From: Luteimicrobium subarcticum
Lineage (GTDB): Bacteria; Actinomycetota; Actinomycetes; Actinomycetales; Cellulomonadaceae
Assembly (NCBI RefSeq): GCF_002798015.1
Contig: NZ_PGTZ01000007.1
Location: 576,222-640,221, forward strand
Length of the DNA stretch: 64,000 bases
Direction: 5' to 3'
The notes under the pieces are model-generated. The model did not search any database. It worked only from the letters and a program-made list of their open reading frames with translations, and was not told the DNA's origin. Positions 967 through 24,894 of the stretch are shown here, piece after piece. Both the position numbers and the translations under genes were made by a program. The number at the start of each line of letters is the position of its first letter. The first letter of the stretch is position 1.

Positions 967-1220
967 GGTCAGCCACGACCATGCCGGGTCAGCCACGACC
1001 TGCGCCGATCAGCGACGACCGGCGGGAGCCCGCTGGTCGTCGGTGCCCGACAGCGAGGGGTGGCGGTATCGGCCCGCAACACTCCCGCGACGCAGCGTGT
1101 CGCGCCGCCGGCGAGCCCGGGACACACCGGCCGCTGCCGGCCCGCGGGTCGTGGCTGACCCGGCATGGTCGTGGCTGACCGTGAGCCGGTCGTGGCTGAC
1201 TACCGCGGGTCGTGGCTGAC
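967..1220. repeat. Repeat A, left array (head-to-head 13-bp units)
   Basis: Three forward units of GTCAGCCACGACC start at 968, 988 and 1008 (the last with two mismatches). Four inverted units, GGTCGTGGCTGAC, start at 1147, 1167, 1188 and 1208. The period is 20-21 bp, about two helical turns. Bases 967-1000 and 1147-1180 form a perfect 34-bp inverted repeat around a 146-nt loop. The array fills most of the gap upstream of the DUF559 gene; no convincing ORF was seen in it. Confidence 0.9.
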
Positions 1221-1318
1221 GGGAAGCCGCGGCGCAGAGCCCGACGTTCCGCCGCGTGGCCGTCCACAGGACCGGCGAGTTGTCGCGGTCGCGGGCCAGC
1301 GCGTGGCATCCCTGGACC

Positions 1319-2263
1319 ATGACTCCGCAACCACCCGTCCCGCCCGTCCCACCCGCCCCGCCTGTCCCGAGCGTCCCCCGGTACCGGTCCGTCGGCGGAG
1401 ACACAGGCAGCGTCCTGACGCGCCTGCAGCAGCACCGTGTGCTGCGGCTCGGCTCCCTCGTGTCGGACGCCTCCGGTCTCGCAGCTCTGCGCGCGCTCGT
1501 CCGGACCGGCCAGGTCGACAGGGTCGGCCACGGGACGTACGCCATGCCCGGCACCCCGGACGAGCTCGTGCTCGCCGCCCGCTTCCGCGGGCTGGTGACG
1601 TGCGCGAGCGCGGTGCGGCTCCATCGCCTCGCGACCCACGGACCACCCGACCACGAATCACCCGAGAGGGTTCACCTCGCCGTCGCGGGCGGGAGCAGCG
1701 GTGGCTCCCACCCTGCGAGGGATCGGGCACGGGTCCGTCTGTACCGCGGTGAACCGGTCGAGGTCTCGTCCGTGCACGTGCCCGGCCCGGTCGTCCCGGT
1801 CGCCGTGGCGCTCGTGACGTGCGCGGTCCGGGACTCGGCGGTGGTGTCGGTCGACAGCGCGGTGCAGCGCGGCTTCGTCACGGTCGAGGAGGTGGCAGCC
1901 CGCGTCGCCCCGCACGCGGCGGCGCGAGCGGCAGTCGTCCTCGGGCTCGTCGACGGCCGGTCGGAGTCGGTCATCGAGACCCTGGCGCGGCTCGCGCTCG
2001 TCGACGCGGGGTTCGCGGTGGTTCCACAGGTCGTCGTCCCCGGTGTGGGCCGGGTGGACCTGCTCGTGGAGGGGACCGTGGTCGTCGAGCTCGACGGCTT
2101 CGCGTACCACGGCGATCGCTCGGCGTACCGCGAGGACCGACGACGGGACCGCGAGCTCGTGGCCCGAGGGCTGACGGTCCTCCGGTTCACCTACGAGGAC
2201 GTCGTGCAGGGGCCGGCCCGAGTGGTCGACGCGGTCCGCGCGGCGCTGGTCGCACGGGCCTGA
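1319..2263 (+). CDS. AbiEi-like N-terminus plus DUF559 (Vsr-like nuclease fold) protein 1
   Basis: A 314-residue cytoplasmic protein of the actinobacterial DUF559 group. The N-terminal part (about residues 15-80) looks like the winged-helix AbiEi-type antitoxin domain (RALVRTGQVDRVGHGTYAMPG). The C-terminal 100 residues carry the DUF559 pattern, related to very-short-patch-repair endonucleases: GRVDLLVEG, VVVELDGFAYHGDRSAYRED and RDRELVARGLTVLRFTYEDV. Candidate metal ligands are the aspartate in VDLL and the E/D of ELDG. ATG at 1319 is chosen over an upstream GTG at 1256 because the family domain begins shortly after it. The gene sits alone between two arrays of repeat A, and the right array begins 2 bp after its stop. 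Substrate and role are unknown. It is paralogous to the gene at 23478-24413. Confidence 0.85.
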   Translation: MTPQPPVPPVPPAPPVPSVPRYRSVGGDTGSVLTRLQQHRVLRLGSLVSDASGLAALRALVRTGQVDRVGHGTYAMPGTPDELVLAARFRGLVTCASAVRLHRLATHGPPDHESPERVHLAVAGGSSGGSHPARDRARVRLYRGEPVEVSSVHVPGPVVPVAVALVTCAVRDSAVVSVDSAVQRGFVTVEEVAARVAPHAAARAAVVLGLVDGRSESVIETLARLALVDAGFAVVPQVVVPGVGRVDLLVEGTVVVELDGFAYHGDRSAYREDRRRDRELVARGLTVLRFTYEDVVQGPARVVDAVRAALVARA

Positions 2264-2265
2264 CG

Positions 2266-2485
2266 GTCAACCACGACCGTGCTCGCGTCAGCCACGACCG
2301 CAGCCCGTCAGTCACGACCGACTTCCGTCAGCCACGACCGCCGACGCGGAGCGCGAGCGGCGGCGGATGTCCCGCGTCCGGCGCTCGGCGACCCGTTCGA
2401 CGGACCCGGAGCGGTCGTGGCTGACGGAAGTCGGTCGTGGTTGATCAGCGCGGGTCGTGGTTGACGGGCAGCGGTCGCGGCTGAC
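2266..2485. repeat. Repeat A, right array (head-to-head 13-bp units)
   Basis: Four forward units start at 2266, 2287, 2307 and 2327 (sequences GTCAACCACGACC, GTCAGCCACGACC, GTCAGTCACGACC, GTCAGCCACGACC). Four inverted units start at 2413, 2433, 2453 and 2473, again at 20-21-bp period. Bases 2313-2341 and 2411-2439 form a perfect 29-bp inverted repeat with a 69-nt loop. The array lies between the DUF559 stop and the convergent aldo/keto reductase, so it could also stop transcription from both sides. Confidence 0.9.
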
Positions 2486-2494
2486 AGCCGTCGC

Positions 2495-3376
2495 TCAGTG
2501 CCCGCCGGTGAACGTCTCCGGGTCTGCGGTGCCGGTGCGCCGGCCCGCGTCGAGGCCCGTGATCGCGGCCATCTCGTGCTCGCCGAGCGTGAAGTCGAGC
2601 ACGTCGGCGTTCTCGGCGAGGCGGTCGCGCGACGACGCCTTCGGGATGACGACGTCGCCCCGCTGCAGGTGCCACCGGACCACCACCTGCGCCGGGGTGC
2701 GCCCGTGGCTCGCCGCGACCTGGACGACCACGGGGTCGTCGAGGACCTGCCCGCGCGCGAGCGGCGACCAGGCCTCCGTGACGATGCCGTGCCGGGCGTG
2801 GAACGACCGCAGCTCGTCCTGGACGAGGTACGGCTGCACCTCGATCTGGTTGACCGCGGGCGGCACGTCGGCCTCGGCGAGCAGCCGCTCGAGGTGGCGC
2901 ACGGTGAAGTTGGAGACCCCGATCGCTTTCGCACGCCCGGAGGCGTACGCCTCCTCGAGGACCCGCCACCGGGCCACGTAGTCCGACACGGTCGGCAGCG
3001 GCCAGTGGACGAGGAACAGGTCCACGTACCCGAGGTCGAGGTCGGCGAGCGTCCTCTCGAACGCCGCCCGGGCGTCGTCGGGCTCGAGGTACGGGTTGTC
3101 GAGCTTGCTCGTCACGAACACGTCGGCCCGGTCGAGGCCGGACGCGCGCACGGCCTCGCCGACCTCGCGCTCGTTGCCGTACATCTCCGCGGTGTCGACG
3201 TGCCGGTACCCGACGTCGAGGGCGTCGCGCACGATGTCGCGCGTGCGCTCCGGCGGGATCTTGTACGTCCCTGCACCGATCTGGGGGACGGTCCCGCCCC
3301 CGCGGAGCGCGATGCGCGGCACCGGCGCGGTCGACGGCCCGGGGGCCGGGCCCTGCGCGGGGGGCGGGAGCGTCAT
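2495..3376 (-). CDS. Aldo/keto reductase 1 (AKR5-like)
   Basis: NADPH-dependent aldo/keto reductase, 293 residues, cytoplasmic TIM barrel that reduces aldehydes or ketones. It shows the family signature GYRHVDTAEMYGNEREVG (catalytic Asp and Tyr), the catalytic lysine in VFVTSKLDNPY, the catalytic histidine in DLFLVHWPLP, the IGVSNF strand, and the cofactor-binding segment VVIPKASSRDRLAEN. It resembles 2,5-diketo-D-gluconate reductases. An N-terminal Pro/Ala-rich stretch of about 20 residues precedes the barrel, so the true start could be slightly internal. It lies 14 bp after a second aldo/keto reductase on the same strand, suggesting a tandem duplication transcribed as a unit. The substrate cannot be read from the sequence. 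Confidence 0.92.
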   Translation of the reverse strand: MTLPPPAQGPAPGPSTAPVPRIALRGGGTVPQIGAGTYKIPPERTRDIVRDALDVGYRHVDTAEMYGNEREVGEAVRASGLDRADVFVTSKLDNPYLEPDDARAAFERTLADLDLGYVDLFLVHWPLPTVSDYVARWRVLEEAYASGRAKAIGVSNFTVRHLERLLAEADVPPAVNQIEVQPYLVQDELRSFHARHGIVTEAWSPLARGQVLDDPVVVQVAASHGRTPAQVVVRWHLQRGDVVIPKASSRDRLAENADVLDFTLGEHEMAAITGLDAGRRTGTADPETFTGGH

Positions 3377-23161: not shown

Positions 23162-23313
23162 CCCAGAAGGGTAGTCGCGACGTCGCGCCCGCCCGGCCGA
23201 CCGTGCACCGACCGCCCTGCTGCAGCCCCCGCCCGCTGGTGGCGCGCGCCCCGCGTCGCCCCGCTTGCGCCCGTCGCGCTCGCACCCGTCCCGCGCACGC
23301 CCGTGCGCGGTGT

Positions 23314-23485
23314 GTTCGTGACGCACACCGCCGGAGCCGCCACGCGGTCGCGCCGCGTTCGTGACGTGGAGCACCCGAGCTGCGGCGCGGTCGGCGTCCG
23401 TGGGAGGTCTTCGGGCGAGATGGCGCGGTCCCCACGCCGGCTGCGGGGGCGCTCGCCGGCTGCTGTGGTGCGTGGCGTCACGAAC
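23314..23485. repeat. Repeat B, copies at 3' side of DUF559 gene 2
   Basis: Forward units GTTCGTGACG start at 23314 and 23357 (43 bp apart). An inverted unit CGTCACGAAC lies at 23476-23485, preceded by GTGGTGCGTGG. The inverted unit supplies the TGA stop of the DUF559 gene. The rest of the 316-bp gap from 23162 to 23477 has no gene that I can support. Confidence 0.85.
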
Positions 23486-24413
23486 GCGCCGGGACGGGGA
23501 GCGTCGCCATGCGGGCCACCGCTGTGCGGTCGGGTGCGGCGAGAGCGGCCCGCACGGCCCGGGGCACGATCGTCGGGTCGCCCATGACGTCCTCGAACGT
23601 GAAGCGCAGGACCACGAACCCCCGTGCGACGAGCTCGCGGTCGCGCCGCCGGTCCTCGCGGTACTCACCGCGACGGGAGTGGTACTCGAAGCCGTCGCAC
23701 TCGACGATCACGTGCTCGACCTGCAGGTCCACCTCGCCCACGCCGACGTGGACGACGTGCGGCACCGGCGCGAAGCCGGCGTCGACCAGCGCGAGACGCG
23801 CGCGCGTCTCGAGGCCCGAGTCCACGCGTCCGTCCGCCAGGGCGAGCGCGGTCCACGCCGCACGGGGTGCGTTGGGCGCCAGGCACCGCGCGACGTCGGC
23901 CTTCGTCACGAGGTCGTCCTTCAGGGCGAGGTCGACCGCCTCGACGGCCTGGTCGCGCGGGCGGCACACGAGTGCCCGCGCGAGTGCGTGGGCGAGGGGT
24001 TGCACCGGGGCGAGCTGGTCGGGCGCCTGTGCGAGCAGGTGGGTGCGGTGGCGTCGGACGACGGCGAGCTCCGCCCGAGGCCAGCGGCTGCAGCTCTTGT
24101 CCAGGGGGACGGCGAGGTGCGTCTCTCGTGGCGCGTCGATGAGCTCGATCCCGTGGATCGCGACCGCGGTCACGCAGTCGACGTGGCCTCCGAACCGTGC
24201 CGCGGTGACGACGGCGGCGTGCGTCCCGGGCAGTGTGTACGTCGCGCGGGCCGCCCGGACGACGAGCCCGGCGCGGACGAGGTTGCGCAGCGTGTTCCGC
24301 TCGGCGTCGTCGCGGACCAGGTCGCGGTGCGCCGCCGCCCCGCCGAGGTCCCGGAGGCGGGCGAGGACGGTCGAGCTCAGCAGCGTCTGGAGAGTGGGCC
24401 GGCGGGGTGGCAT
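23478..24413 (-). CDS. AbiEi-like N-terminus plus DUF559 (Vsr-like nuclease fold) protein 2
   Basis: Paralogue of the protein at 1319-2263, 311 residues. ATG at 24411-24413 (MPPRRPTLQTLLSSTVLARL) is preferred over a longer frame. The N-terminal winged-helix-like region (RNLVRAGLVVRAARATYTLPG) aligns with RALVRTGQVDRVGHGTYAMPG of paralogue 1. The C-terminal DUF559 domain has GEVDLQVEHVIVECDGFEYH, YREDRRRDRELVARGFVVLR and FTFEDV. Here the presumed metal-site ELDG is ECDG. The block YREDRRRDRELVARG is identical in both paralogues. Repeat B units flank the gene on both sides, and one overlaps its stop codon. The biological role is unknown; a DNA-binding or nicking protein acting on its flanking repeats is a hypothesis only. 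Confidence 0.85.
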   Translation of the reverse strand: MPPRRPTLQTLLSSTVLARLRDLGGAAAHRDLVRDDAERNTLRNLVRAGLVVRAARATYTLPGTHAAVVTAARFGGHVDCVTAVAIHGIELIDAPRETHLAVPLDKSCSRWPRAELAVVRRHRTHLLAQAPDQLAPVQPLAHALARALVCRPRDQAVEAVDLALKDDLVTKADVARCLAPNAPRAAWTALALADGRVDSGLETRARLALVDAGFAPVPHVVHVGVGEVDLQVEHVIVECDGFEYHSRRGEYREDRRRDRELVARGFVVLRFTFEDVMGDPTIVPRAVRAALAAPDRTAVARMATLPVPARS

Positions 24414-24649
24414 CGCACCGTTGTGCCACGGGAGCGTCGTCCGCCGCCGCGCCCCGACGACCCGTTGGGGATGACCCCAGCGCGCGGGGGGTCTGTGCAC
24501 GGGCGTCGGACGTCGTCTCGCCGGGGGTCTGCGCCAGGAGTCCTGCCCGCGCTCTCGTGGCGATCGTGTCCCGGGACCCTCTCCCGCGACCCCTCGTGGG
24601 AGCGCGCGGCGCCGACGTGAATGCTCGGGCCCGCCGCGGTGACCGGCGC

Positions 24650-24894
24650 GTTCGTGACGCGGAGCACCAGAGCTCTGCCGTGTCGAGGGCCGTTCGTGAC
24701 GTCACGCAACACGACCCCCTCCGGCAGTCCCCGCAACACGGATCGCGCAGGAAGGCCGATCAGGAGGTGTCCGGACGACTCCGCGCCCACCCCCGGCTGA
24801 GGGCTGTGGTGCGTGGCGTCACGAACGCGAAGGGCGGGCGGTGGGTCGCGGGAGGGCTGTGGTGCGTGGCGTCACGAACGCGAAGGGCGGGCGG
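24650..24894. repeat. Repeat B, copies at 5' side of DUF559 gene 2
   Basis: Forward units GTTCGTGACG start at 24650 and 24692; the second contains the perfect palindrome CGTGACGTCACG (24695-24706). Inverted units CGTCACGAAC lie at 24817-24826 and 24870-24879. These two sit inside a perfect 43-bp direct duplication (24799-24841 and 24852-24894). The array occupies the gap between the DUF559 start and the end of the fdhF-like gene. The remainder of that 499-bp gap (24414-24649) shows no gene. Confidence 0.88.

Follow-up and report, generated by a model that had tools for sequence, protein, structure and literature searches.

In a 64,000-nucleotide stretch of the Luteimicrobium subarcticum genome (the window; contig NZ_PGTZ01000007.1, positions 576,222 to 640,221, of a 3.63-Mb draft assembly), a DUF559 gene is bracketed by two arrays of a short repeat with the consensus GTCARCCACGACC (unit U1; coordinates are those of the window). 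Array A1 comprises a forward half of three units at 968..1020 (starts at 968, 988 and 1008, step 20 bp) and an inverted half of four units at 1147..1220 on the minus strand (1147, 1167, 1188 and 1208, steps 20, 21 and 20 bp). The gene follows as an open reading frame of 335 codons at 1256..2263 on the plus strand, opening with GTG at 1256 but likely starting at ATG 1319. Array A2 begins 3 nt after its stop codon, with a forward half of four units at 2266..2339 (2266, 2287, 2307 and 2327, steps 21, 20 and 20 bp) and an inverted half of four units at 2413..2485 on the minus strand (2413, 2433, 2453 and 2473, steps of 20 bp), ending before the stop of a convergent aldo/keto reductase gene (2495-3376, minus strand). 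Nine of these 15 units are exact and six have 1-2 mismatches to GTCAGCCACGACC. The inverted arms are 967-1004 with 1143-1180 (38 nt, 97% identical, 34 of them perfect around a 146-nt loop) and 2286-2341 with 2411-2466 (56 nt, 84%, 69-nt loop). The original prediction of 15 copies in two forward-then-inverted arrays around a DUF559 gene was thus confirmed as an observation. With up to 3 mismatches, the window holds 106 matches against 70 ± 8.6 in shuffled sequence, with 0 of 100 shuffles reaching 106; genome-wide, with up to 1 mismatch, 87 matches were found against 14 for the reversed pattern.

The genome holds seven arrays of this unit, the two in the window and five others near C1:807064, C2:147557, C2:383668, C5:12372 and C5:190376 (C1, C2 and C5 are contigs of the draft, C2 being that of the window), none of the five next to a DUF559 gene. 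In 7 of 7 arrays all forward units precede all inverted ones, with 3 to 6 units per half if units with up to 3 mismatches are counted. Five arrays step by 20-21 bp and two by 31-32 bp, three helical turns. Over 53 units in these arrays (up to 2 mismatches), the core is near-invariant, with G or A at position 5 and a G favoured after the unit (39 of 53). The surroundings vary and include convergent genes (A2; TrkA/isochorismatase; 2-oxoacid dehydrogenase acyltransferase/cation ATPase), tandem genes (A1; histidine kinase/glycosyltransferase; MFS/HlyD) and divergent genes (dnaX/ppk2, array E), the kinase and MFS names resting on our reading of the sequence. Within an array, each half tends to keep its own variant, as if halves grow by tandem duplication, although this is an inference. 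A repeat coding for peptides was ruled out because steps of 20 and 31 bp break the frame, and a known RNA family was ruled out because an Rfam search returned only three sub-threshold microRNA matches.

The unit itself is private. A two-unit pattern was found in 1 of 221 genomes of the family, its own, and in none of the GTDB species set, which may leave out the window's own genome; a widespread conserved motif was therefore rejected. The relatives nevertheless carry arrays of the same build with other units and steps of 21-22 or 30-32 bp: U2 (GCCGAGTGCGACG) and U3 (CCGAVCATGCGAT) in L. xylanilyticum HY-24, U3 and a further unit CGAGTCAGCGCG in L. album NBRC 106348, and U2 also in a species of another genus (G178). 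A U2-type pair was found in six genomes, four of them being those we label G030, G084, G088 and G089, and L. xylanilyticum has at least nine U2 places remote from the gene. A first de novo scan allowing 3 mismatches was swamped by GC-rich noise and was replaced by stricter scans. In G178 (loci L156 and L177), the U2 array alternates forward and inverted units with steps of 48 and 49-54 bp instead of forming two blocks.

Comparison of orthologous sites indicates turnover of these elements. At the kinase/glycosyltransferase site, all three Luteimicrobium species have arrays, each with a different unit. Array E has no counterpart between dnaX and ppk2 in the relatives, where the spacer is about 95 and 108 bp by our count against 366 bp. 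Further, at an orthologous DUF559 locus, L. xylanilyticum (L172) has a 56-bp element (18-bp arms, 20-nt loop) upstream of the gene that L. album (L171) lacks. One intergenic gap of L. album (L147, about 1400-1991) is a mosaic of a U3 element, a GGTCA-GACCGGCA-type inverted pair, a CGAGTCAGCGCG array and a further palindromic block, whereas the orthologous gap of L. xylanilyticum has U2 instead. An 871-bp segment, 98.4% identical and holding a U3 element, occurs at two places of the L. album chromosome (L144 1503-2371 and L145 1237-2104). In addition, the loops of U2 arrays at several L. xylanilyticum loci (L085, L138, L135) share a conserved block of about 100-160 bp, also present in L. album L144, L145 and L147, so larger composite elements exist. 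An empty site for the whole U1 cassette could not be defined, because roughly 8-13 kb of other DNA lies between the two flanking genes in the relatives.

What lies between paired arrays is a DUF559-like gene. In L. xylanilyticum, two U2 arrays bracket a 319-codon gene with the IEYDGEYH motif, whose Pfam matches to MTES_1575 and DUF559 are below threshold, and two U3 arrays bracket another. L. album has the U3 pair around a copy that is frameshifted relative to its L. xylanilyticum ortholog while its arrays remain (L170 1046-2242), and in G178 two U2 arrays bracket a DUF559 gene. The second DUF559 gene of the window (23535..24329, minus strand, matched part only, 50% identical to the first) has its own unit, GCGTTCGTGACGY, on both sides, with an array on its 3' side at 23312..23487 (+ 23312, + 23355, - 23475) and one on its 5' side at 24648..24881 (+ 24648, + 24690, - 24816, - 24869). 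The genome's third DUF559 gene lies between copies of CTCCCGCCGAGGCGCAC, so that all three clear DUF559 genes of this genome are bracketed, each by a different unit. Of the 16 PF04480 matches in five genomes, 9 are bracketed by one or other of the tests below or by known arrays, while the 7 others include the weakest matches, some in long frames of other proteins. Beside another DUF559 gene (L047 1270-1440) lies a run of GGCTGTCGC-type repeats with a 12-bp step.

To test this association, we asked for the same 11-mer (1 mismatch allowed) as an inverted pair with the same distance (within 2 bp) on both sides of the gene. This strict test was positive for 17 of 46 loci from genome searches (three loci occur twice in that set) against 0 of 184 shuffles, and for 18 of 78 named loci from a GTDB scan (2 of 80 being left out as too short) against 0 of 152 positions of the same size elsewhere in the same loci and 0 of 234 shuffles. 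In the non-redundant set (126 loci, 109 after removal of duplicates, 107 after length filtering), 31 of 107 were positive, in Cellulomonas, Pengzhenrongella, Georgenia, Oceanitalea, Demequina, Actinomyces, Mobiluncus, Paenarthrobacter, Leifsonia, Gulosibacter and Luteimicrobium, with Cellulomonas and Pengzhenrongella represented through the duplicate loci L191, L194, L200 and L208 of the named set. The remaining 76 of 107 were negative, among them the window's own U1 gene, whose two loops differ in length; a DUF559 gene of L. xylanilyticum shows no arrays at all, and both matches of a further genome (G163) are negative. The control flanks are mostly coding and were not matched for intergenic length. 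A looser test that also catches arrays of unequal loop was positive for 26 of 98 loci against 0 of 61; it left out 12 of the 46 first-set loci (3 with frame or contig-edge trouble, 3 duplicates, 6 weak or in other domain contexts), so its 98 is not the same set as the 107. Among 33 testable genes of the window it flagged 1, the U1-bracketed DUF559 gene, while the second DUF559 gene was flagged as locus L158 but not in that window run.

The geometry is constant inside a family. In the third family (CTCCCGCCGAGGCGCAC), all six remote loci looked at (L265-L269, L271) and both copies beside the gene have the inverted unit 52 bp after the forward one, and extra units lie 32-34 bp away. Over 45 half-array means, the best common period is 10.5 bp (resultant 0.95), with classes of two, three, four and five turns. 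These spacings were transcribed by hand, the means partly rounded, and copies within one class are not independent; a single class would fit some period by itself, and the weight comes from several classes agreeing. The unit follows the protein: for 32 bracketed genes, unit similarity and protein similarity correlate (Mantel r 0.306, p 0.0002), also without the 4 closest pairs (r 0.173, p 0.0034), whereas with one unit reverse-complemented there is no positive correlation (r -0.13). This analysis dropped L047 and L056 (frame broken), replaced L164 by the full gene, and used four typed units plus one altered by hand; the correlation is modest and does not remove shared descent. The two U2 proteins of different genera are kin (38% identity, the best match of the L. 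xylanilyticum protein in this set).

The protein encoded between the U1 arrays is predicted to join an AbiEi-like DNA-binding N-terminal half to a Vsr/homing-type PD-(D/E)XK nuclease half. A Pfam scan up to E 1 lists only MTES_1575 and DUF559 above threshold and AbiEi_4 just below its cut-off, and AbiEi profiles match weakly, to E 2e-07. The structural model (mean pLDDT 88.5, pTM 0.82) aligns over residues 25-212 with AbiEi of Streptococcus agalactiae (6y8q, Z 9.5 over 174 residues) and over 213-314 with the nuclease domains of I-Bth0305I (3r3p, Z 11.5), Vsr (1cw0, Z 9.8) and a Neisseria endonuclease-like protein, although Foldseek alone gives no PDB match below E 0.001. The catalytic-type residues E220, D247, E257, D259, H264 and D273 are invariant in 35 sequences, and the E-x-D-G core is seen in nearly all bracketed proteins.

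These observations suggest that each AbiEi-DUF559 protein is the partner of one private family of short inverted-repeat elements, in a REPIN/RAYT-like system on an unrelated nuclease, a reading we consider somewhat more likely than not. The basic element would be a non-palindromic unit of about 11-20 bp, a loop and the inverted unit; in some lineages, as here, the units are multiplied into half-arrays whose steps are whole helical turns, with two copies bracketing the gene and others in intergenic sites elsewhere. The bracketing, the dispersed copies in Luteimicrobium, the constant geometry inside a family, the turnover of units between species and the correlation of unit with protein are demonstrated by the sequences, and the two-part protein architecture is a prediction. 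It is by inference only that the AbiEi half would bind the unit, that several proteins would stack on one face of the DNA, and that the nuclease half would nick or cut at the element so that repair or replication copies it to new sites, much as RAYT proteins are thought to spread REPINs. The strong single-strand folding of the arrays (A2 as RNA z -10.8 and as DNA z -9.5; A1 as DNA z -8.8) would suit a replication-linked step, again by inference. The bracketing we regard as almost certainly real; binding of the cognate unit, the firmest inferred step, is likely, given that AbiEi proteins bind inverted repeats (PMC7319586); spread of the elements by the protein, the least certain step, is only somewhat more likely than not, resting on presence and absence between species, with no target duplication or exact insertion point defined.

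The interpretation in the original prediction was partly supported. Its tie to DUF559, its phasing by whole helical turns and its binding array rather than chance GC bias are all supported and hold far beyond this locus, with binding itself inferred. However, five of the seven U1 arrays are not next to a DUF559 gene, so the link lies in the bracketing pair and not in every copy; the period is not only 20-21 bp; and, as the unit is absent from relatives that carry the same architecture with other units, the refutation test proposed in advance, run on this unit alone, would have misled.

Other readings are less well supported. The strongest of them, though unlikely, is that the AbiEi-like half is an autorepressor, the units its operators and the remote arrays its regulon, the nuclease half being incidental or acting elsewhere. 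AbiEi proteins do autoregulate by binding inverted repeats in their promoter (PMC7319586), one inverted half-array lies just upstream of the gene, and phased units suit cooperative binding; however, copies with the same geometry lie behind the gene as well, often between convergent gene ends, and remote arrays occur in convergent, tandem and divergent settings alike and come and go between species. Still less likely, the protein may sit on its arrays as an architectural, insulating or self-protecting (addiction or immunity) system, the arrays being kept for that use rather than as mobile elements. Helical phasing fits this view, as do arrays at the same site in three species with three different units, as if the site rather than the unit were kept, but few copies per genome, absence at other orthologous sites and mosaics of several families in one intergenic gap look more like repeated insertion.

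We consider it very unlikely that the inverted half-arrays act in transcripts as terminators or stabilisers: the arrays fold strongly and several lie between convergent genes, yet the steps are quantised in DNA helical turns, no Rfam family was found, the tie to one protein family is not explained, and array E lies between divergent genes, which led us to reject simple terminators. Equally unlikely are ordinary miniature transposons moved by an unrelated transposase that happen to collect beside DUF559 genes. Elements do occur far from DUF559 genes, and the repeated 871-bp segment of L. album holds a U3 element, but 0 of 152 control positions in the same loci are bracketed, each gene has a different unit, and unit correlates with protein. 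A bolder possibility, tentative and rather less likely than not, is that AbiEi-DUF559 proteins, an actinobacterial family of unknown function, form a separate class of repeat-spreading nuclease systems that arose independently of HUH transposases, each protein recognising a private, fast-diverging, often helically phased inverted repeat, spreading it through intergenic DNA and keeping itself bracketed by it, with repeated swaps of specificity at the same chromosomal sites.

The bracketing gives a testable role to DUF559, a domain of unknown function, by naming its likely DNA target gene by gene, since the target can be read off the flanks. If the mechanism holds, the REPIN/RAYT way of life arose a second time on an unrelated nuclease, and the about thirty units identified would supply natural protein-target pairs for learning how an AbiEi-type domain reads DNA. 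Among papers mentioning DUF559, none links it to dispersed repeats by title or abstract start, and searches on palindromic, flanking inverted and intergenic repeats, on REP with Vsr, on EDxHD or AbiEi, and on Luteimicrobium repeats listed no such report in a literature collection that excludes most subscription journals.

Several known systems resemble parts of this arrangement. The predicted C-terminal fold and the conserved acidic and His residues are shared with Vsr endonuclease, with the homing endonuclease I-Bth0305I and with VsrA of Caulobacter, a DUF559 protein with a Vsr-like predicted fold that is responsible for an SOS response in cells lacking a methyltransferase (PMC12907096). None of these is known to be bracketed by a private dispersed repeat, and Vsr is not known to have the AbiEi-like half. 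AbiEi antitoxins of type IV toxin-antitoxin systems share the predicted fold of the N-terminal half and bind inverted repeats as monomers (PMC7319586), but here that half is fused to a nuclease domain, the neighbours are an aminotransferase and, downstream, an aldo/keto reductase rather than a nucleotidyltransferase toxin, and the putative target repeats lie on both sides and are dispersed. BIMEs and other REP clusters are likewise clusters of inverted repeats in intergenic gaps, sometimes mosaics (PMC2817692); BIMEs alternate orientation, as the G178 array does, whereas in the U1 arrays all forward units precede all inverted ones. The closest parallel is with REPINs and their RAYT/TnpA_REP proteins (REPtrons), in which a single-copy nuclease gene is bordered by copies of an inverted doublet, with other copies dispersed in extragenic space, several families per genome each with its own protein, and long co-divergence of repeat and protein (PMC3116915; PMC8266576). 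RAYT genes are bordered by palindromes (PMC8266576). Bordering of the gene by inverted doublets was found here, as were further copies in extragenic DNA, the latter for families of three Luteimicrobium genomes and G178 only. In contrast to REPtrons, the protein matches AbiEi and Vsr-type folds and no Y1/HUH transposase domain was detected in it, the unit is not itself palindromic (4 of 13 positions self-complementary for U1), U1 lacks the GTAG tag although two other families (L043, L044) do begin with GTAG, the copy numbers found are low, and the units can form helically phased arrays.
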